Shown here: in pieces, positions 7,365 through 30,507 of the stretch
How positions within the stretch are numbered: position 1 is the stretch's first letter
Layout: each line of letters begins with the position of its first letter
From: Candidatus Paracaedimonas acanthamoebae
GTDB taxonomy: Bacteria > Pseudomonadota > Alphaproteobacteria > Caedimonadales > Caedimonadaceae
Assembly: GCA_017307065.1 (NCBI GenBank)
Contig: JAFKGL010000022.1
Span: forward strand, 1 to 37,512
Length of the DNA: 37,512 nt
Direction of reading: 5' to 3'
Translations under genes and position numbers: made by a program
Notes under the pieces: generated by a model
What the model was told of the DNA's origin: nothing
The model's database searches: none
What the model saw: the letters and a program-made list of their open reading frames with translations, nothing else

Positions 7365-8528
7365 TTAATAGGATGAATCCTGTTCTTTAGAATTTTGATT
7401 ATTGACAGGTGGGATTCCTAAGATTTTTAAGGTTTTTATTAAATCTCCTCCGTCTTGAATAAGTTCAGCAAGGAGTTCACTTAAAGACATATCTCCCCAG
7501 GAAACAGCACGTCGAATCAAGTAAGGGGTTGGACTATGAGGTTCCACTTTAGCTAAGTAATCAGAAATTTCTGCAAGCATTTGATACGCTTGTTCCCGAT
7601 TTGTAATTGTCTGAGGTGTATCTTTTTTCATTATTTTTTTTACCAAGTTAATAGAAGAAGCAATTTTGGAGGGTTTTTCTTCTGGTTTTTCATCTTCATT
7701 CTTTCCAGAGAGAGATGGGGGATGAAAGGGTTCTCTTTTTTTAAGGGTAAGTGTCGAAAAATCTTCTAATTTCTTAATTTCTTGTCGTAAGAGATTAAGA
7801 ATTGAAGGATAATTCGAACATTTTTGTAAAATAAAAATTTCTAACTCATTAATAATTTTAATCGTATTTTGACAACTATTCACAAGGTCTTCATAAAATT
7901 CTGCTGGAGTCTGAGATTGGCTTTGAAGAAATTGGGACATTTTTACTGAGGGCTCATTCTGGGTTATTTTACTTTTTTGAGCGGCTTCATGTCCCATTTT
8001 GAGAGTGTTCTCATAACGAGCTGCAATTTCATAATCTGTATAAGTATAACCTTTATTTTTATTATGGGAGGTATGCGTAATTGCCATCAATCGAAGAGGG
8101 ATAAGTAATTTTTCATTTAACCACTCAAGAGGCGCAAGTCGATATTCAATATCTTCTTTTTGAATTTGAGGATGGAGAGTTGTCCAGAAATTTTTACAGA
8201 GGCCAAGACAAAGTGTAATTCCCAATTCAAGTCCTTTCATCCCATACAGCCTCAGCCAAGCGTCTGTGAGCCATGCAGCAACTTGCAGATCTTTAGAGTC
8301 ATTTTGCAAGATAGAACAGGCCAATTCTTCAACTTTTCCCCAATCTGCTTTTTTTAATTCTCTTTGCCAAATACCTAAAGAAAGAGCTTCATCTTCTTCG
8401 ATGCGGGCATTTCGAAGTTGATCATAATGATGTTCATATTGTAAATACCGGCCAGATGGTTCTTTCCCCTTGAGAGGCGTTAAAAGAGATGAAATTTGCT
8501 TTGATGCTTTTTCTAATCCTAAAATCAT
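7365..8528 (-). CDS. tssA: Type VI secretion protein TssA
   Basis: TssA guides assembly of the T6SS tail, contacting the baseplate and membrane complex or the distal sheath end. The 387-residue protein starts with the ImpA N-terminal domain (about residues 1-125): the EPSGRYLQYEHHYDQL stretch, an acidic Glu-Glu-Asp, and the ADW...SKDLQVAAWL...G...GL pattern typical of the family. Its C-terminal part carries PYLIRRAVSWGDMSLSELLAEL, which is the conserved C-terminal helix block of short TssA proteins. It begins one base after the tssM stop, so translation is coupled. It is the last T6SS gene of the operon. Assignment to a TssA structural class would need a C-terminal domain comparison. Confidence 0.85.
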   Translation of the reverse strand: MILGLEKASKQISSLLTPLKGKEPSGRYLQYEHHYDQLRNARIEEDEALSLGIWQRELKKADWGKVEELACSILQNDSKDLQVAAWLTDAWLRLYGMKGLELGITLCLGLCKNFWTTLHPQIQKEDIEYRLAPLEWLNEKLLIPLRLMAITHTSHNKNKGYTYTDYEIAARYENTLKMGHEAAQKSKITQNEPSVKMSQFLQSQSQTPAEFYEDLVNSCQNTIKIINELEIFILQKCSNYPSILNLLRQEIKKLEDFSTLTLKKREPFHPPSLSGKNEDEKPEEKPSKIASSINLVKKIMKKDTPQTITNREQAYQMLAEISDYLAKVEPHSPTPYLIRRAVSWGDMSLSELLAELIQDGGDLIKTLKILGIPPVNNQNSKEQDSSY

Positions 8529-8529
8529 T

Positions 8530-11500
8530 TTAAAAAGCCTTTTTCGAAGGTTGTCCCTTTAACATAAAAGAATCTAATAGGGGTGCCTGTATTGGGAAGC
8601 GTGGAAGGGCAATATATTTTATTTTTGAGCTTTCTTTTTCAGAGGATGCATTTTTCTCTTCTTTTTTACGTTTCACAGTCTCATGAAGAGCAATTCTTAA
8701 GTATACACGGCTATCTGTCGTTTTTTTCTCAAGAGTGGAAGGAGTATCTTCTTGAGGGTTCTCAAGTCTACATGTGGTCGGAATAATAAATTCTAATAAT
8801 GAGCTTGGAGAATTTTTTAGGTTGGATGGTTCTGTCTCATAAGAGATATGTTCTTTAATGAGCTTGATGAGACTCCAACGTCCTGTATATACAAAACTTG
8901 CTTTAGGGCCAATCACAGTTAAATTTGATTGTCGAGGATCCGAAAGGGGGGACAGATCTCCATCTATCGCCCAGCGTAAATCAACAATAATAGGCATTCC
9001 CATGGTCCAAGAAGTTTTCAAATTCTTTTGACGGAAATCAAGTATTTGAGAGCCCACTTGCATACGCCAATCAATAATTTTATCTCCTCCGGCTTCACGT
9101 GTACGATCCGTACGGAATGAGACATCGAAATCAATCTTTGAAGGTATTGTTTGGTCTGCTTTTTGATCAATCGCAGCTAACATTAAAGCACGAATACTTT
9201 GAATATCTTTAACAAAGCGGATCGCTTCAGATTCAGTCCCATCGATTTTGGAATATTTCTCAAGAGAAGAAATTTCTTGTGAATCAAGCATATCGAAAAG
9301 TTCAAAGAAGGTTGTGACGTCATCTTGGTCAGCATCAAAAGTCTCGGAATTTTCTAACTTATGGCTGAAAGGAAAGCGTCCAGCAAGATGGGTGTTAAAG
9401 AATGTTGCAGCTTTATTGTAATGCTCAAAAGCGCGATAAACTGTCACATTTTTACATCTTTTTCTAAGTTGTTTGCTAATGGTGTTGCGAATATCAACAA
9501 AATAATCATTAAAGTCTGTGAAATCATCTTGGAAATCAAGAGAAGCACAATTTTCGAGCGTAATTTCATTGATGTCGTACGTTAAGAAATGTTCGAGAGC
9601 CACTAAAGAACTTCCAGGTGTTTTCTTCTCATAATCATCCACAGCTTTAATAATTCGTGTCCACCAATCGACGAGAGGAATATCAAAAGGAATGTCTTCA
9701 AGATAACCAATACTAAGAAGCGTAAGAATAGGTTCGGCAAGTTCTTTTGCAAGGAAGCTGACTCTGATCCTTTGAGCCTTTAAAAATGCTTTCATGTCAT
9801 TAAGGTCGCGAACACCAAAAGCTTTTAACCCAACCATAAGACTTCCATCCCACCACACAAACATATCTTCGCGTGCAGCGTATAGATCATCATTTTCAAG
9901 AATTTTCTCAATTTTTTGTAATATATGCTGACTCTCATTTACGAGGAGTTGTCTCAGTTGAGTATTTTGAGTCACCAATCCACCTTCATCAAATACGCTA
10001 AAAATTCGAGCGAAGATCGGGACAACTTTAGTCACATTAAGAACTTGGGCTTGAAGAAGTTCTCGCGTTCCAAGACTTGTGCTGTTTGTTGGTTCATCAC
10101 TAAGAACTTGAGACTGAGCCACATAGTTCAACAGACATTGACGCATACTATTGCGGCCAATTAGTTTCATGATGTTTTGGAGGATAGGAGGCATATTATT
10201 GAGACGTTGCCCGATGAAATCTTCGAAATTTTCAATTAATATTCCGGCTTTTTGCAGCGTAAGATCATCCCAAAATAAAAGCTTTCCTGTAGGAACTTTT
10301 GTCATTATTTGTTGATCAACAGATTTCATCATAAAAGGCTCTTCCAAAAACATTGACATATAATCAATGAAATGAATGAGGCCAGGAGAAGGGTCTGAAA
10401 CCAGTTGCCCATTTCTCAGAGAAAATAAAGAACCTGTTAGAGGCGTTGAAAAACTCGCAAGGGCCAATTTAAATTTTACGAATTCTCTTTCAGAGATTCT
10501 ATTTAATTCGATTGAAATATCTTTTCCTAATAACGTCGAAGTCGTAATTTGGCTAATGAGAGAACTATATCCAGGGCCTGGATCAAAAACATCTTTATCC
10601 GCCCAATCAAGGCGACCGCTCGACATAAGATCCGCAGCTGTAATTGCTTCGGCGACGATTTTTCGGAGATCTTCACTTTTATAAGTTCTTGTTTGAGCTG
10701 TATCGGAAAGTTGGACTAATTTTCTAGAAAGGCTTGAAAAAATAGGGAAAGTCTCGTCTAAATTAAAAGCGTGCTCAATAAAATTCTTGTAAATGATACC
10801 AAGTTTTTGTCCCGCTCCTATCTTAAAAGGATTTAAATCAATTGGCCGATCAACACTTAGAGAAAGAGCAGAACTATAATAATCTGCAGAGGTATAAAAT
10901 TGAGAAGGTAGATCTTTATTGAAGAGATATTTTATAAGGGCCGCTAAGTCCTGAATATTACGACTATGTTCAAGGTTATTAAAGTTATGAACTTGCTGTT
11001 CAAGTTGTTGAATTTGCTGAACATAATTCTTAACTGCTAGAAAAGGTTGAGATACCAAAAGATTTGCCTCACCTTGGTTATATCCACTACTGGGGTATTC
11101 AAGTTTCTTCAAAGAAATAATATCTTCTATTTTCTTGATGATGGCAGAGTATAAAGAAGGCAGGATAATTCGATCATAAGCAGCTGAGAAAGAAAGGCGG
11201 ATGTTATGATTTAAATGACTAAACCATGAGGTCGGAATAAAAAGTGAACTGACGTTGACAGTATCAACAGTCGTGAATTTTTCTAAAATAATATCAGCTT
11301 GTTGATCAAGATAGGCCAGAAAACGTGGATCGTCAGAAACGCCTCCTTTGAGACTCACGCCTTGAATAGATTTATCAATCTGAATAAGAGCAGGCATTGT
11401 CGTACTCAACCCTGTTTTAAGAGTATCATGAGCAAAAATAAGTCCCGCCAACCACATAATTCCTAAGGCTGCGGCGGTAGCTTTCACATAATTCAAAATT

Positions 11501-12795
11501 CTATTTGTGGAAATTAAAACTCTCATAATAGGTTGGGCCAAAGTTGATTCAGCAAAGATCTTTTTTTCAAATAAATCTGTCACAAAATAGAGGCGTTCCG
11601 AGAGAGGATTTTGGAATTCTTCTTCATTATTAAGATCAAAATCTGTCGTAATTTTTGGAAGTAGAGAAGGAGCAACTATAGATTCTATAAAAGTCCGGCC
11701 GGTTAAATAAATTCCTCGTAAGAAGAAAGATTCATGATAGGCGCTATCTTTGAAGATTTGGCCTAAATAAATTTGAAGATTTTCTTTAAGGTGAATAAAT
11801 TCAAGAGGTAAGGTAAATACGCCATCAATAAGAGTTGTGGGGGCTTTTTGAGCTGTAAAAATAGAGGCTCGAAGGCGATCTAAGGTTCTATGAATATATC
11901 GAAATGCTTCATCGACCCAAGAAGTCAAAAAATTAGCATCAGTACTATACGGGCTTGACCATCCTAAAATTTCTTGTGAATTTCCAGAAGGAAGGGCTTC
12001 AACAAAGCTTTGGAATCCTGGCATAACGTCACTTTTTGTGAGCACCACATACACAGGAACTTTTATTCCTAAGATATTTTGAAGTTCCCAAAGTTTCGTA
12101 TAGATAACTTTGGCACGTTCATATATTTCATTATGGCTTAATCTGTCTTCAGAGGTTAATTCATCGCATGGTATCGTTAAAATAATGCCATCAAGAGGAC
12201 GTTTAGGACGAAAACGATTTAATAATTGTAAAAGATATCCCCAATCTTGATTATCAGATGAAAGAGAATTTTCGCGGAGGATAAAGGGACCATTTGGTTC
12301 GAGGATTACCGCGCCATCATAGAAACGCCAAATTAATTTAGAATGTTCTTCTGGGACCTCAAATTCGGGTCTTCCAATTGGAAGTTCAAGGTTTAAATTT
12401 TTTAATAAAGTGGTTTTTCCTGATCCTTCAGCCCCAACTAAAAGATACCAAGGCAACTCATATTGAGGTTCTCTAGAGCCTAGATATGTTTTTAAGATTT
12501 CTTCGGTCTGGCGAAATGAATTGCTCATTTCATCTTTGGGAAGTTGCCCCCATCCTAGATGAGAGAATTTGTCTTTAAAAGTTTTTCTCCATGCTAAAAA
12601 GCGTTTGAAGTAAGAGGTATTATTAGTTTGTAAAGGCTGGGGCGCTCGAGTTTTTGTTTTTTGTTTAAGGGATTTAGCAACTGTTTTTTGAGCAAAAAAT
12701 ACTAAAAATATAACTAATAAAACACCTAAAGCGAGTGCAATAAAAACGAAATAGGGAAGGTAGGGGAGAAAAGCTTGCAGAATTTCAGTAATCAT
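8530..12795 (-). CDS. tssM: Type VI secretion membrane-complex protein TssM (IcmF)
   Basis: Central scaffold of the trans-envelope complex, bridging TssL in the inner membrane to the lipoprotein TssJ. The 1421-residue protein, longer than the roughly 1,100-1,300 residues common for the family, has two N-terminal membrane helices close together (about 10-34). A cytoplasmic NTPase-like domain follows, with an intact Walker A GAEGSGKT (121-128) and TKSD (253-256). It also has the family signature FFLRGIYLTG (357-366), a third membrane helix near 438-455 and a large periplasmic region. Because Walker A is preserved, nucleotide use is plausible, although some TssM proteins lack it. A strong AGGAGG ribosome-binding site precedes the ATG. 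It follows tssL by nine bases. Confidence 0.93.
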   Translation of the reverse strand: MITEILQAFLPYLPYFVFIALALGVLLVIFLVFFAQKTVAKSLKQKTKTRAPQPLQTNNTSYFKRFLAWRKTFKDKFSHLGWGQLPKDEMSNSFRQTEEILKTYLGSREPQYELPWYLLVGAEGSGKTTLLKNLNLELPIGRPEFEVPEEHSKLIWRFYDGAVILEPNGPFILRENSLSSDNQDWGYLLQLLNRFRPKRPLDGIILTIPCDELTSEDRLSHNEIYERAKVIYTKLWELQNILGIKVPVYVVLTKSDVMPGFQSFVEALPSGNSQEILGWSSPYSTDANFLTSWVDEAFRYIHRTLDRLRASIFTAQKAPTTLIDGVFTLPLEFIHLKENLQIYLGQIFKDSAYHESFFLRGIYLTGRTFIESIVAPSLLPKITTDFDLNNEEEFQNPLSERLYFVTDLFEKKIFAESTLAQPIMRVLISTNRILNYVKATAAALGIMWLAGLIFAHDTLKTGLSTTMPALIQIDKSIQGVSLKGGVSDDPRFLAYLDQQADIILEKFTTVDTVNVSSLFIPTSWFSHLNHNIRLSFSAAYDRIILPSLYSAIIKKIEDIISLKKLEYPSSGYNQGEANLLVSQPFLAVKNYVQQIQQLEQQVHNFNNLEHSRNIQDLAALIKYLFNKDLPSQFYTSADYYSSALSLSVDRPIDLNPFKIGAGQKLGIIYKNFIEHAFNLDETFPIFSSLSRKLVQLSDTAQTRTYKSEDLRKIVAEAITAADLMSSGRLDWADKDVFDPGPGYSSLISQITTSTLLGKDISIELNRISEREFVKFKLALASFSTPLTGSLFSLRNGQLVSDPSPGLIHFIDYMSMFLEEPFMMKSVDQQIMTKVPTGKLLFWDDLTLQKAGILIENFEDFIGQRLNNMPPILQNIMKLIGRNSMRQCLLNYVAQSQVLSDEPTNSTSLGTRELLQAQVLNVTKVVPIFARIFSVFDEGGLVTQNTQLRQLLVNESQHILQKIEKILENDDLYAAREDMFVWWDGSLMVGLKAFGVRDLNDMKAFLKAQRIRVSFLAKELAEPILTLLSIGYLEDIPFDIPLVDWWTRIIKAVDDYEKKTPGSSLVALEHFLTYDINEITLENCASLDFQDDFTDFNDYFVDIRNTISKQLRKRCKNVTVYRAFEHYNKAATFFNTHLAGRFPFSHKLENSETFDADQDDVTTFFELFDMLDSQEISSLEKYSKIDGTESEAIRFVKDIQSIRALMLAAIDQKADQTIPSKIDFDVSFRTDRTREAGGDKIIDWRMQVGSQILDFRQKNLKTSWTMGMPIIVDLRWAIDGDLSPLSDPRQSNLTVIGPKASFVYTGRWSLIKLIKEHISYETEPSNLKNSPSSLLEFIIPTTCRLENPQEDTPSTLEKKTTDSRVYLRIALHETVKRKKEEKNASSEKESSKIKYIALPRFPIQAPLLDSFMLKGQPSKKAF

Positions 12796-12804
12796 TTAAT
12801 CCTC

Positions 12805-13617
12805 CTACTGTTTTTTGCCTGATTCATATAGAATACGGTCAACAATTTTAAAAGTTTCAGATGTAACACTGTGCCACACTCCATAAGATGCCAATAATAA
12901 CGTGGCAAAAGCGCTTGCGATGACAATCATCCATAAACGCACATCTTGAAGAAGTTTCACTTTTCGAGGTTCTGGTGTATGTGTATAGGCTTCTGGGAAA
13001 AGTCGTTCTTCTTCTTGATAGAGTTTAGGTTCCGAATGGTTAATAAAAACATAAAGCTGTCGAAGATAATGAGTTAGTTGACCTTCATCATTTGTATCTC
13101 GATATTTCCCTTGAAATCCAAGGCCTAGAGACAATAGATAAATTTGAGCAAGATCATTCCGCAACGGATCACGGGTGGCTAATAAATTTTCAAGCCTTGT
13201 AAAAAACTGTTCTCCAGCATCATGTGTTTCAAAGAAGAAAGATTCAAGAAGGTTATCTTCCCAATATTTACGACCTTTCCAATCTAAAGATAAGAAAATT
13301 TCATCCGCAAGGGCTGCCATAATATATTTGGTCTCAAGATAATAACTTACGGCAAATTCACCCCCAAACCGGCTAGATTCCATGGTTTGGCGTTCAATCA
13401 AAAGACGGAGTTCTTCTAAAAAACCTCTCGCTTGAGTTGCAATCGTTTCATTTTGATCTCCTGGGATATCATCTATGCCATCTCGAATAGGAAGCCATTG
13501 TTCAGTTTTAATTCTTTCTTTAATTTCAATGATTTTAGTGTAAAATTCTTCAAAATAACGAATCACAAAGGATGTTTCGTAATCTTCCTGCCGTCTTAAA
13601 TTGATAGGGACACCCAT
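12805..13617 (-). CDS. tssL: Type VI secretion protein TssL (DotU/IcmH)
   Basis: Inner-membrane subunit of the T6SS membrane complex. The 270 residues form the cytoplasmic helical DotU domain (about 15-215), with the conserved YYLETKYIMAALADEIFL segment and W...LLESFFFETHDAGEQFF, then one C-terminal membrane helix (about 228-250) and a short periplasmic tail of about 20 residues. There is no OmpA-like or other peptidoglycan-binding extension, unlike many extended TssL proteins, which matters for the role of the SPOR gene at the operon start. AGGAG lies upstream of the ATG. It stands between tssK and tssM in the usual order. Confidence 0.92.
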   Translation of the reverse strand: MGVPINLRRQEDYETSFVIRYFEEFYTKIIEIKERIKTEQWLPIRDGIDDIPGDQNETIATQARGFLEELRLLIERQTMESSRFGGEFAVSYYLETKYIMAALADEIFLSLDWKGRKYWEDNLLESFFFETHDAGEQFFTRLENLLATRDPLRNDLAQIYLLSLGLGFQGKYRDTNDEGQLTHYLRQLYVFINHSEPKLYQEEERLFPEAYTHTPEPRKVKLLQDVRLWMIVIASAFATLLLASYGVWHSVTSETFKIVDRILYESGKKQ

Positions 13618-13635
13618 AGCGTTTTCGCTCCTTTT

Positions 13636-14982
13636 TTACGTATTAATTTTTTCTAAATTATTTTTGGGGACATAGAGCACAAGTTCAATAGGTCTTTTTT
13701 CTTGGTTATCGGCGATATTGAAAATCTGCAAGTCTTGATCGGGTTTAATGAACTTAGGATCCGTTTCCACTGTAAATAAGAGGACATCTTTAGCGGGAAA
13801 CAGATTTAATTCATTATCTCCTTCAATGATCTTTCGTGAAGCCCCAAGAATACGTTTGTCACGACTTGGTGCCACATGAGTTTCTGAAGCAATTAAAGTA
13901 TTCATGAGCCATGCCACAAGATCTTTCTCATTCATAGCTGGTGATGCTTTGACTCCCAAAATTAAAGAATTTCCTATCCACTCACGTTTTAAAGGAAGAG
14001 AGAAAAGCCGATCTTTTTGATTAAAAGGAACAATGAAATATCCTTCTTGGATGCGGGCTAACATTAAATTAATGTAAGTAATTAATTCCACATAGCTGGT
14101 GCGAATATCATTATGTTGATAGGCATTGAAGACGGGAGGCATTTGCCCCAGATTAAGCGTAGAAACATGACTTGCGACTGTGGCTAGTTGTAAATATAAT
14201 TGAAAAGGATGGGCTGTGCCTGCATGCAAGATTGCTTCTAAGGCTAATAACCCTGTTGTAAGGGCGCGAATACTTTGTTCAGCTTCTGCTGACATAATGT
14301 CGCCCGTATTACTATAAAGTTGATCTCCCAGAAAGGCTATTTTCTCACGCATTGTTTTTGCAAGACCTAAACCAAGAAGCCCAAGGGGTGAATCTGTTTC
14401 AACTTTTAAAAGAGGTGCAGTATAATCTGTAAGCGCAAATCCATTTGTTGCGTAATGAATCTCCATCAGAGGCAGGGCAACAAAGCGAGAAGGAGCCTCT
14501 TCTCCAATAAATAAACTTAAATTAGGCTGTAGAATTGGGAAAGCCATTTTTCCTTCACCAGTATTTTCATCAACGACTTGAAAGCCATCTTTTGACATAA
14601 AGCGGGCTTCTTCTCGAGAGACATTTAGGGTGCCAGGTTTGTATTCTGGTATTACCAAAAATACTTTAAGAGGTTTTGTTTTTAAGGTTTCAATAAAGGG
14701 AGTTAAGTTAATCTCAAGGAAATCACCTTCATTCGCGTAAGTCGAAACAACAAGACCATCCGGCATGATAGCTTCAAGTTCTAAGATGCGTAATTTACCA
14801 GCAACGAGGATAGCAGGATCGAAAGTGAAATGAGTGATGCCCCAGTGATGAGAAACAGCTGTGTTGATGTGAAAACTTAAGAGTTGATGTAAACGATGAT
14901 CATTTTGTTGGAAATGTTGAGGCATTAATAGCATGCCTTCGTACCACTGGATTGCATCCCTTACGCGTCCTAATTTTGACAT
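13636..14982 (-). CDS. tssK: Type VI secretion baseplate protein TssK
   Basis: TssK links the T6SS baseplate to the TssL-TssM membrane complex and works as a trimer in the cytoplasm. The 448 residues begin with the diagnostic region IQWYEGMLLMPQHFQQND followed by HINTAVSHHWG, seen in nearly all TssK proteins, and length is normal. An upstream GTG at 14994 is in frame, but it overlaps the purine-rich GGGGGA that serves as the ribosome-binding site of the ATG at 14982, so the ATG was chosen. The gene follows tssJ by 18 bases and precedes tssL by 18 bases. Confidence 0.93.
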   Translation of the reverse strand: MSKLGRVRDAIQWYEGMLLMPQHFQQNDHRLHQLLSFHINTAVSHHWGITHFTFDPAILVAGKLRILELEAIMPDGLVVSTYANEGDFLEINLTPFIETLKTKPLKVFLVIPEYKPGTLNVSREEARFMSKDGFQVVDENTGEGKMAFPILQPNLSLFIGEEAPSRFVALPLMEIHYATNGFALTDYTAPLLKVETDSPLGLLGLGLAKTMREKIAFLGDQLYSNTGDIMSAEAEQSIRALTTGLLALEAILHAGTAHPFQLYLQLATVASHVSTLNLGQMPPVFNAYQHNDIRTSYVELITYINLMLARIQEGYFIVPFNQKDRLFSLPLKREWIGNSLILGVKASPAMNEKDLVAWLMNTLIASETHVAPSRDKRILGASRKIIEGDNELNLFPAKDVLLFTVETDPKFIKPDQDLQIFNIADNQEKRPIELVLYVPKNNLEKINT

Positions 14983-14987
14983 TTTTT

Positions 14988-14992
14988 CCCCC
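14988..14992 (-). promoter_or_regulatory. Ribosome-binding site deciding the tssK start
   Basis: GGGGG followed by A on the minus strand lies five bases before the ATG at 14982, and argues against a GTG start at 14994 that would contain it. Confidence 0.55.
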
Positions 14993-15000
14993 ACTATTCT

Positions 15001-15609
15001 TTATAAATTTTTCTTCTCAACTTCTTCTTTTTGTTCTGTGACATCGATAGGTTTTGAGGCCATACCTGCACGGATTGTTTCAAGGAGCAGATCCTCCGCA
15101 CTTTTTGCAGGGCCTGTTTTTTCAAAGCGGCACCCTTGTTCTAAAATACAAAAATCTTCATTTCTAAGTCTGAGATGAATATCTGTTGCGTTTCCAACGC
15201 GTTCTCGATGATTGCCTGGCGTTAAATAATCAGCAAAGATAACGATTCCTAAAGGTTCATCACCAGTCGCCTTAATTTCGTAATCAGAAATGGCTTGTCC
15301 TGGGGTTAATTCCCATCGATAAACTTGCACCAACTCAGGATAATCTCTTTTAATTTGGTCAGAAGAAGCGAAATAATCTGTCGAATTAATTTTCATAAGA
15401 GCTTTTAACAATTCCATTTTGTAAACAATAAGAAGTTCAATGGCTGTCGCGGAGTTACGATTTGCATCATTATCAAGAGAAATAGAGACTGTATTTAAAT
15501 TTAATTTCGGATCTCGTGCATCATCATCTTTAGCACATCCCACGACGCACACGAGACTCAAGAGAGCAAAGAAATTTTTTAGGTGTTTAAGATTTTTGAT
15601 CATACTCAT
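15001..15609 (-). CDS. tssJ: Type VI secretion lipoprotein TssJ
   Basis: Outer-membrane lipoprotein that binds the periplasmic end of TssM. The 202-residue protein has a lipoprotein signal peptide with a hydrophobic core at about residues 12-21 and the lipobox VVGC (C25). Residue +2 is Ala, compatible with transfer to the outer membrane. The mature part includes the TssJ-like region LTPGQAISDYEIKATGDEPL and a later stretch on additional structure, GIVIFADY. Presence of TssJ places the system with classical proteobacterial T6SS(i). It lies between the SPOR gene (19 bases) and tssK. Confidence 0.88.
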   Translation of the reverse strand: MSMIKNLKHLKNFFALLSLVCVVGCAKDDDARDPKLNLNTVSISLDNDANRNSATAIELLIVYKMELLKALMKINSTDYFASSDQIKRDYPELVQVYRWELTPGQAISDYEIKATGDEPLGIVIFADYLTPGNHRERVGNATDIHLRLRNEDFCILEQGCRFEKTGPAKSAEDLLLETIRAGMASKPIDVTEQKEEVEKKNL

Positions 15610-15628
15610 TATTTACTCAATTCTTCAT

Positions 15629-16690
15629 TTATTGGTTATGTTCCGCAGAAGTAATAGGCACAATACGTGTAGGTTGCCCTCCTTGTTCGCGCAAAATTTT
15701 GGAAGCATTTAAAGCTTCTTGAAAAGATTTATATTGTCCTGCTTGTACGGCATAAATAATTCCTTGAGGGCTCCATAAACGATTAAAGTGGCTGTCTGTG
15801 AAACCTCTTTTTTTAAGATCTTCGACATATTCTTGAGCCGTACTTTGATCTGTGAAATCACGTATATGAAGGGTGTAAAAGTTTTGACTTTTAAGAGGAT
15901 TAGAATTCTCTTTAGATGACGTATTTTCTTCTTTTGAAGATTCTTTTTGAGGCGTTGATGAAGACGTTGTCATTTGAGAATTTTGTTGTTCATTTCCTAT
16001 TTTTTCACTCACTTGAGAAAAAGCTTGATTGGTTTTTTGTTGCGCGATTGTTTGAGCTAGCCCCGTTGTGAGAGGGATAACAATACCCCCTAATTTAGAT
16101 CCGAGAGTATCCCTAAGTTTACTTGTGACATTATTAAGTGCTTGGGCCACAGAAGATTGGGCCTGGAATTTAGCCGCTGCTAAAGTTTGTTGTTCTGCTT
16201 GAGTGACAAGAGAAGGTTCAATAACTTTGCGCCCTGAGGCTTTTGCAAGTTGTTGTTGGCGCATACTGTAAGAAGGTGTAGAAGAATTTTCAACCAGATT
16301 AGGATGTGTATTATTTCCTGAAAGCGGGGCAATTGTTTTTACGGCGGCTTGTGTAAGAGAATATCCGCCATAAGGAGGGAAGAGCGTATAACATGTGAGA
16401 AAACCAACAACAAAGAATAAAGTCGCCATGAATGCGAGAGCAATTAACAATATAAGGCTTGATATTTTTCCCAATTTTACTTCTCCATCAGCGGGTGTTT
16501 TTAAGATGGTCTTTTTCTTCATTTCAAGAGAAGCAAGATCATTCTCTAAGATTGTTGAGGCATCTTTAGGATCTTCTTGTGTTCTTTGAGTTATAAAATT
16601 TGGCAGAGGTTCATGTGGACGTTGTTGAGCAACGCGTAAACCCTCACGCCGTCTTACAACTCCATATAGAATCTCTTCTACTGTACTCAT
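15629..16690 (-). CDS. SPOR-domain membrane protein heading the T6SS operon
   Basis: A 353-residue bitopic protein. A basic cytoplasmic N-terminal part (1-75) is followed by one membrane helix (about 77-103), a Gln/Ser/Thr-rich periplasmic linker (about 110-268) and a C-terminal SPOR domain (about 270-345, with YTLHIRDF...YAVQAGQY and two amphipathic helices). SPOR domains bind septal peptidoglycan stripped of stem peptides (family knowledge). The gene starts the operon, 19 bases before tssJ, with a GAGGAG ribosome-binding site. TssL here has no peptidoglycan-binding domain and no TagL-like gene is present, so this protein may anchor the T6SS to the wall. That role is inference; a cell-division role with accidental cotranscription is the alternative. 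Confidence 0.75.
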   Translation of the reverse strand: MSTVEEILYGVVRRREGLRVAQQRPHEPLPNFITQRTQEDPKDASTILENDLASLEMKKKTILKTPADGEVKLGKISSLILLIALAFMATLFFVVGFLTCYTLFPPYGGYSLTQAAVKTIAPLSGNNTHPNLVENSSTPSYSMRQQQLAKASGRKVIEPSLVTQAEQQTLAAAKFQAQSSVAQALNNVTSKLRDTLGSKLGGIVIPLTTGLAQTIAQQKTNQAFSQVSEKIGNEQQNSQMTTSSSTPQKESSKEENTSSKENSNPLKSQNFYTLHIRDFTDQSTAQEYVEDLKKRGFTDSHFNRLWSPQGIIYAVQAGQYKSFQEALNASKILREQGGQPTRIVPITSAEHNQ

Positions 16691-29645: not shown

Positions 29646-29653
29646 ATCCTCAC
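29646..29653 (-). promoter_or_regulatory. Ribosome-binding site deciding the M50 gene start
   Basis: GTGAGGAT on the minus strand lies six bases before the ATG at 29639 and overlaps the SPOR gene stop. Confidence 0.55.
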
Positions 29654-30507
29654 CTTTTTTTGACGCGACAGCCGAGTGTAATATTGTGTTTAGCACTAAC
29701 CTTTTTTAGCTCTTGGCAAAGATTTTGAGCTTCTTTTTTTGTAAAAGAGCCAGCGATGAGTCGGATCCTGACGCCTGTGTCATTTCCTAAATCAACTTTT
29801 TTAAATTCAGGTTTAAGGGCCTGAAGATAAGATTTAAGAACTTGTCGTGAACTTAAACGTTTCCATTCTAACTTTGCTTGTTCTTCAGTTTTAAGGGTGC
29901 CTAATTGTAAACAGTAACGTTCTTGAGAAGGGGTATTTTTCTCCGGCGACGTTTTTACATGGGATCCTGAGATGGCAACATTGGCAGATTTAGCTCCTTC
30001 TAAGTCAGTTTCTTTTGCAAGATCATTTGATATTTCTTTTGGATCTTTCGTTGTTTGAATGACAGAAACATCTGACTTACTTTTGGTTGCTTTAGAGTCG
30101 GGTAAAGTTATTTCCGTTTTTTCTTCTAAAAATTCCCCTATGAACTCTTCAGGCAAGCTTAAAGGGCGTGCAATTGGTTCCTCGGGGCCACCCAGTAAAT
30201 TTTCAACTCTTTGTGGTTCTTTGGTATCCGAAAGTTTTTGATAGATTGTTTTATCTTCATGCGTATCTTTGGGATTTGTCGTAGGCCGTATTTTGGTGGG
30301 ACCTTCTAAGGGTTTGATAACAGGAATCAGGCCCGCTGGTGTATGGTCGGCCCCTGGGTTTGAAAGCTGCCAAAGGCCCAGTAAAATACCTAAAATCATG
30401 CACAAACAGATCCCATACCGTAAAAGAGGGTTTGAGAGAAAGACTTTAAAAGTTATCGTTGATTTATCTTGAGAATAACGTTCTTGATCCCATTTGCTTT
30501 GTTGCAT
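29650..30507 (-). CDS. SPOR-domain membrane protein of the export block
   Basis: A 285-residue bitopic protein: short basic cytoplasmic N-terminus, one membrane helix (about 30-48), a Pro/Glu/Lys/Thr-rich periplasmic linker and a C-terminal SPOR domain (about 197-284, beginning YCLQLGTL and with VRIRLIAGSFTKKEAQNLC). It should bind septal peptidoglycan. This corresponds by position to the SPOR gene found between argS and nagZ in many alphaproteobacteria. It is the first gene of the long minus-strand block and is divergent from erpA, so the 109-base spacer must hold its promoter. Unlike the T6SS SPOR gene it has a conserved housekeeping setting. Confidence 0.88.
   Translation of the reverse strand: MQQSKWDQERYSQDKSTITFKVFLSNPLLRYGICLCMILGILLGLWQLSNPGADHTPAGLIPVIKPLEGPTKIRPTTNPKDTHEDKTIYQKLSDTKEPQRVENLLGGPEEPIARPLSLPEEFIGEFLEEKTEITLPDSKATKSKSDVSVIQTTKDPKEISNDLAKETDLEGAKSANVAISGSHVKTSPEKNTPSQERYCLQLGTLKTEEQAKLEWKRLSSRQVLKSYLQALKPEFKKVDLGNDTGVRIRLIAGSFTKKEAQNLCQELKKVSAKHNITLGCRVKKR

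Follow-up and report, generated by a model that had tools for sequence, protein, structure and literature searches.

A SPOR-domain membrane protein that travels with TssJ in one alphaproteobacterial T6SS type: a probable accessory subunit and plausible wall anchor

Wall anchoring of T6SSs is known from OmpA-type domains, and to our knowledge many T6SSs lack a recognised anchor; denuded glycan is the ligand of SPOR domains, which localise to septa. Here we consider a locus in Candidatus Paracaedimonas acanthamoebae in which a SPOR-domain membrane protein is encoded beside T6SS genes, and ask whether this protein belongs to the secretion system and whether it could hold the apparatus in the wall. 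The window (i.e., the whole 37,512-nt stretch analysed) is an entire contig (C22) of a 1.65 Mb genome with a completeness of 99.99%, whose closest named relatives are Caedibacter sp. 38-128 and 37-49. From open reading frames and family profiles, the gene order on the minus strand, 5' to 3', is SPOR, tssJ, tssK, tssL, tssM, tssA:

15629-16690, minus strand: SPOR-domain bitopic membrane protein, 353 aa (PF05036, E 2.2e-6, 28.3 bits)
15001-15609, minus strand: tssJ, outer-membrane lipoprotein (TIGR03352, 25.2 bits, under the 31.6 cut-off; lipobox Cys)
13636-14994, minus strand: tssK, baseplate (TIGR03353, 209.7 bits)
12805-13617, minus strand: tssL (DotU), short form (PF09850, 107.9 bits, and alignment)
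8530-12795, minus strand: tssM (IcmF) (PF14331, 177.8 bits)
7365-8528, minus strand: tssA, short ImpA type (TIGR03363, 281.2 bits)

The gaps along this run are 19, 6, 18, 9, and 1 bp, and the next gene upstream of the SPOR gene, a pfkB kinase gene, lies 213 bp off. An earlier note, made from the letters of this DNA, had described a SPOR membrane gene heading a tight tssJ/K/L/M/A operon, and the ORFs, profiles, and 1–19 bp gaps bear this out. The window's TssL is 270 aa long with ~20 residues beyond its C-terminal TM helix in the alignment, and therefore carries no wall-binding extension, again as the note had read it. TagL and other OmpA-type wall-binding domains were absent from the T6SS locus, and the single OmpA domain of the genome belongs to a ~155-aa lipoprotein beside TolB, i.e., Pal, which rejects the possibility of a TagL encoded at another site. 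We likewise rejected an additional OmpA-bearing T6SS cluster, as the genome has one tssK and one tssC match only, and the ten proteins scanned around tssC include no OmpA or SPOR domain. The note's further statement that an OmpA-like TagL gene is missing thus stands, including for any other T6SS cluster.

The tssC region lies on another contig (C24, locus L030). There, a single 631-aa ORF encodes TssB and TssC as a fusion (L030:10911-12806; PF05591, PF05943, and PF18945), and open frames of 613–660 aa around the VipB match in 9/9 T6SS-positive genomes of the order suggest that this fusion, for which we found no mention in the open-access literature, is common to the order. Directly after it follows an Hcp-like protein (L030:10275-10859; PF05638 weak, below cut-off), which may be the TssD reported missing in Holosporales. 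A review lists both TssJ and TssD as apparently missing there (PMC11909080); in contrast, we found TssJ in each of the nine genomes of the order that have a T6SS, with an invariant lipobox Cys. A glucosaminidase-domain protein (PF01832; L030:5816-6769) is encoded near tssBC-hcp-tssE, with nifU-like and uvrB genes between, and is possibly unrelated.

The C-terminal domain of the window's protein (residues 269–346) is a SPOR domain by both profile and fold. Its PF05036 score of 28.3 bits exceeds the curated cut-off of 21, and the two-helix, four-strand SPOR fold was recovered with AlphaFold and Foldseek, the top PDB match being the SPOR domain of RlpA bound to denuded glycan (6i09; TM-score 0.83 on target). 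In the model the SPOR domain is mostly at pLDDT 85–95 and the TM helix core at ~94, with a mean of 66.8 and an unsure middle part. Pentatricopeptide-repeat proteins were the top PDB sequence matches of the SPOR profile, and were discounted in favor of CwlC, DamX, FtsN, and RlpA because their scores are summed weak repeats. Ahead of the SPOR domain, a probably cytosolic N-terminus that bears the motifs RRRE and PLPxF (residues 13–32) is followed by a TM helix (~75–103), a predicted helical periplasmic part (~140–230), and a low-complexity linker; we infer this topology from the sequence. The genome encodes four SPOR domains, namely the one described, a second in the window (29650-30507), an RlpA-like protein, and a D-Ala-D-Ala-carboxypeptidase-like protein, the latter two named from their own sequences. 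The second SPOR membrane protein of the window is unrelated, and by eye keeps the QLG motif of ordinary SPORs.

Within the order, ten genomes were sampled and tssK was found in nine. All nine, from four families, show the order SPOR-tssJ-tssK-tssL-tssM-tssA, although the flanking genes vary between families. The SPOR protein diverges faster than its neighbor TssL (20–33% vs 45–50% identity outside the genus), and what persists across the order is an N-terminal R-rich/PxPxF motif, a TM helix with GFLxxY at its end, and the SPOR domain at the C-terminus; the PLPxF motif and the TM helix are the most conserved parts of the protein besides that domain. The note had called for a survey of relatives for a SPOR gene beside tssJ, and held that finding it mostly away from tss genes would speak against a T6SS role; the gene is instead beside tssJ in 9/9 T6SS-positive genomes of the order and 24/49 in the class.

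This class-wide figure comes from 385 sampled alphaproteobacterial genomes, whose neighborhood DNA was annotated with profiles built from the analyzed sequences; the counts are of genomes or loci rather than independent events, and fragmented genomes may conceal genes. A tssK was found in 68 of the 385, with scores that split cleanly into 20 loci at 382–508 bits and the rest at 127–234 bits. Loci of the high-scoring type carry OmpA in 18 of 20 cases (17 fused to TssL, one as a separate gene) and SPOR in none; those of the low-scoring type, to which the window belongs, carry OmpA at no tssK locus. TssL-SPOR fusions were not seen at the T6SS loci examined.

The profile of the window's tssJ type matches 49 of the 385 genomes, and in 24 of these a SPOR gene lies directly 5' of tssJ (23 by profile at E <=0.01, some of them weak, and one, L307, by eye). 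Among ten such proteins checked, eight score above the Pfam SPOR cut-off and two below it (L237, 19.8 vs 21; L225, 15.7). In five genomes (L237, L246, L301, L307, and L308) the SPOR-tssJ pair lies off the tssK-bearing stretch, though in L237 contig ends may be behind the separation. Four further genomes (L202, L204, L289, and L306) have, 5' of tssJ, a single-pass protein with a similar N-terminus and no SPOR domain. A related TM protein is encoded elsewhere in the genome in four others, SPOR-less in L240 and L241 and with a degenerate SPOR-like stretch, judged by eye, in L130 and L131. In ~20 of the 49 no such gene stands beside tssJ; a SPOR gene is missing there in, e.g., the Azospirillum-like L195 and L198 and families f28, f107, f139, and f144. 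Lineages with a SPOR-less counterpart or with no such gene imply that the SPOR protein is not strictly required. All 12 genomes whose match spans the N-terminal/TM part carry the window's tssJ type (hypergeometric p 5e-12, which is not a true probability, as the genomes are related). In genome G049, two tandem SPOR genes (L212:6830-7363 and L212:7379-8302) stand directly 5' of tssJ.

Beyond this sample, 80 named loci from other genomes showed SPOR next to tssJ only in alphaproteobacterial-type loci, with no case outside Alphaproteobacteria among them (Acidobacteriota, Desulfobacterales, Nitrospina, and others). The arrangement is shared by the cultured, free-living Marivibrio halodurans (L060) and Pacificispira spongiicola (L067). 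One locus titled Mesoflavibacter sp. (L063) carries an alphaproteobacterial-type T6SS with SPOR; the close resemblance of this SPOR to the one in L191 makes it probable that the record is mislabelled and derives from an alphaproteobacterium.

On a TssK tree of 59 rows, SPOR presence requires 3–4 changes vs ~20 for shuffled labels, which fits an old association with a few losses. The tree was made by a quick method with SH-aLRT support only, the placement of its root and of some long branches is uncertain, and the states of family f59 are possibly wrong because its genomes have an unlinked TM protein. Taken with gene order, conservation, and co-occurrence, assignment of the SPOR gene to the T6SS rather than to the adjoining operon is strongly supported. 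It behaves as T6SS accessory (Tag) genes do, staying with core genes across lineages (9/9 in the order; 24/49 in the class, plus the four SPOR-less cases). Since SPOR accompanies the window's tssJ type and OmpA the other type, the protein very probably serves the T6SS as a dedicated component of its envelope part.

Whether that component grips the wall is a separate matter. In RlpA, residues Q270, R302, R309, and R311 touch glycan (PMC6895207), and we mapped them onto the T6SS SPORs through alignment with an RlpA-type protein. The Q270 equivalent is kept in 12/13 non-T6SS SPORs, in 18/27 T6SS SPORs outside the order, and in 0/9 within it, where it is H, E, L, or R; for R311 the corresponding figures are 12/13, 18/27, and 4/9. 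The window's own domain has H, A, and Q where RlpA has Q270, R309, and R311, i.e., it lacks these three glycan contacts. In this lineage, then, the aligned residues indicate that the SPOR fold is kept and the known glycan-contact site is not. Loss of residues in the pocket is not proof of lost binding, and with the fold kept and the contacts changed, the domain there may recognise a modified glycan or else a protein.

The main rival to a wall anchor starts from these residues. It holds that the protein is a subunit of the T6SS membrane complex whose SPOR domain is a protein–protein module (contacting, e.g., TssJ or TssM). Besides the loss of Q270 throughout the window's clade, it can draw on this genome's three remaining SPOR proteins, which by inspection keep the Q, and on the lineages in which SPOR is missing or degenerate even as a similar N-terminal/TM part is kept. 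Yet two thirds of the SPORs of other T6SS lineages retain Q270, the same share retains R311, and the mutual exclusion of OmpA and SPOR between T6SS types fits a shared wall-binding role, so that we regard a purely protein-binding SPOR as unlikely overall, if the strongest of the alternatives.

Very much less likely is that binding of the SPOR domain to denuded septal glycan directs the T6SS to new poles or the site of division, septal placement having also been raised in the earlier note. SPOR domains are indeed known to bind denuded glycan and to gather at septa (PMC6895207), and the ligand-site residues are partly retained in relatives from outside the order; but the key residues are absent from the window's SPOR, and the neighborhoods examined show no division-gene link. 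The loss of Q270 in the clade, together with several lineages without SPOR, speaks against septal targeting of a simple kind and is compatible with a protein-binding role; septal placement finds no support here. Hardly credible, finally, is that a SPOR protein with a routine task in division or wall maintenance sits beside the operon by chance: SPOR proteins are common and this genome encodes three others, but chance is excluded by adjacency to tssJ in 9/9 genomes of the order with differing flanks, and the reading is rejected on that gene order and on co-occurrence, since the gene lies beside tssJ in 24/49 genomes of the class, even where tssJ is far from tssK, and the window's tssJ type is present in all genomes with an N-terminal match.

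The explanation that we favor, with a probability of roughly 0.6, is that the protein serves the membrane complex as a dedicated accessory subunit beside TssJ, and that its SPOR domain probably touches the wall in most lineages. The original anchoring proposal is upheld in part: T6SS membership and the absence of TagL and TssL-OmpA speak for it, and the loss of Q270 and partial loss of the arginines in the clade speak against it. Judged on its sequence, the protein is a plausible wall anchor, with wall contact suggested by the SPOR fold and the OmpA/SPOR exclusion and weakened in the window's clade by the ligand-site data. In the mechanism that we propose, the protein would act beside TssJ in one alphaproteobacterial T6SS type as a single-pass inner-membrane subunit with a cytoplasmic N-terminus, probably docked to TssL, TssM, or TssK through the PLPxF motif and the TM helix. 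Its periplasmic stalk would present the SPOR domain, and contact between this domain and the glycan chains of peptidoglycan, probable in most lineages, would stabilise the complex within the wall—the job that the OmpA domain of TagL or TssL-OmpA does in the other alphaproteobacterial T6SS type. In Caedimonadaceae and relatives, the ligand may instead be a modified glycan or a protein.

If correct, the replacement of OmpA by a separate SPOR partner of TssJ would provide one alphaproteobacterial T6SS type with a candidate anchor, and would help to complete the parts list of the Holosporales T6SS, which reviewers consider the most credible host-interaction machine of that group (PMC11909080). Its occurrence in cultured Marivibrio halodurans and Pacificispira spongiicola makes the role testable. 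More tentatively, the pattern might extend to an entire alphaproteobacterial T6SS branch that reaches from free-living Rhodospirillales to endosymbionts of protists: its membrane complex would include an unrecognised subunit that travels with TssJ and makes wall contact through SPOR in place of OmpA, the SPOR pocket having been remodelled for another ligand in the endosymbionts.

Among known systems, the closest published precedent joins SPOR to a T6SS inner-membrane subunit: 14 DotU/TssL-SPOR fusions were reported from a domain-architecture search, their function not assayed (Broms et al., 2012; PMC3326028). The note's statement that no described T6SS uses a SPOR protein therefore needs correction, and novelty is partial. 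The window differs in having SPOR on a separate protein and a short TssL; we did not find such a separate SPOR partner of TssJ in the open-access literature, a mention in a subscription journal being possible, and Midha et al. described tssK-tssL-tssM-tssA in this group with SPOR unmentioned (PMC8163844). In its single pass, cytosolic N-terminus, flexible periplasmic linker, and C-terminal SPOR, the protein resembles division proteins of the FtsN, DamX, and DedD type, whose genes serve division and have no T6SS link; the window's protein is without the conserved glutamine and arginine present in FtsN (PMC6895207). TagV of Serratia marcescens, functionally related to TssJ, is likewise an accessory T6SS protein of the envelope that carries a putative wall-binding domain, but it is an outer-membrane lipoprotein with an SH3b domain that does not bind TssL or TssM (PMC7614798), whereas ours is a single-pass SPOR protein. 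Nearest in presumed role are TagL (SciZ of enteroaggregative E. coli) and the “evolved” TssL-OmpA of Agrobacterium, which are thought to anchor the TssJLM complex in the wall (PMC3426401). They too are inner-membrane T6SS components with a periplasmic putative wall-binding domain, in their case of the OmpA/Pal/MotB family and in ours SPOR; TagL is polytopic and TssL-OmpA a fusion, whereas the window's version is a separate single-pass protein encoded beside tssJ.
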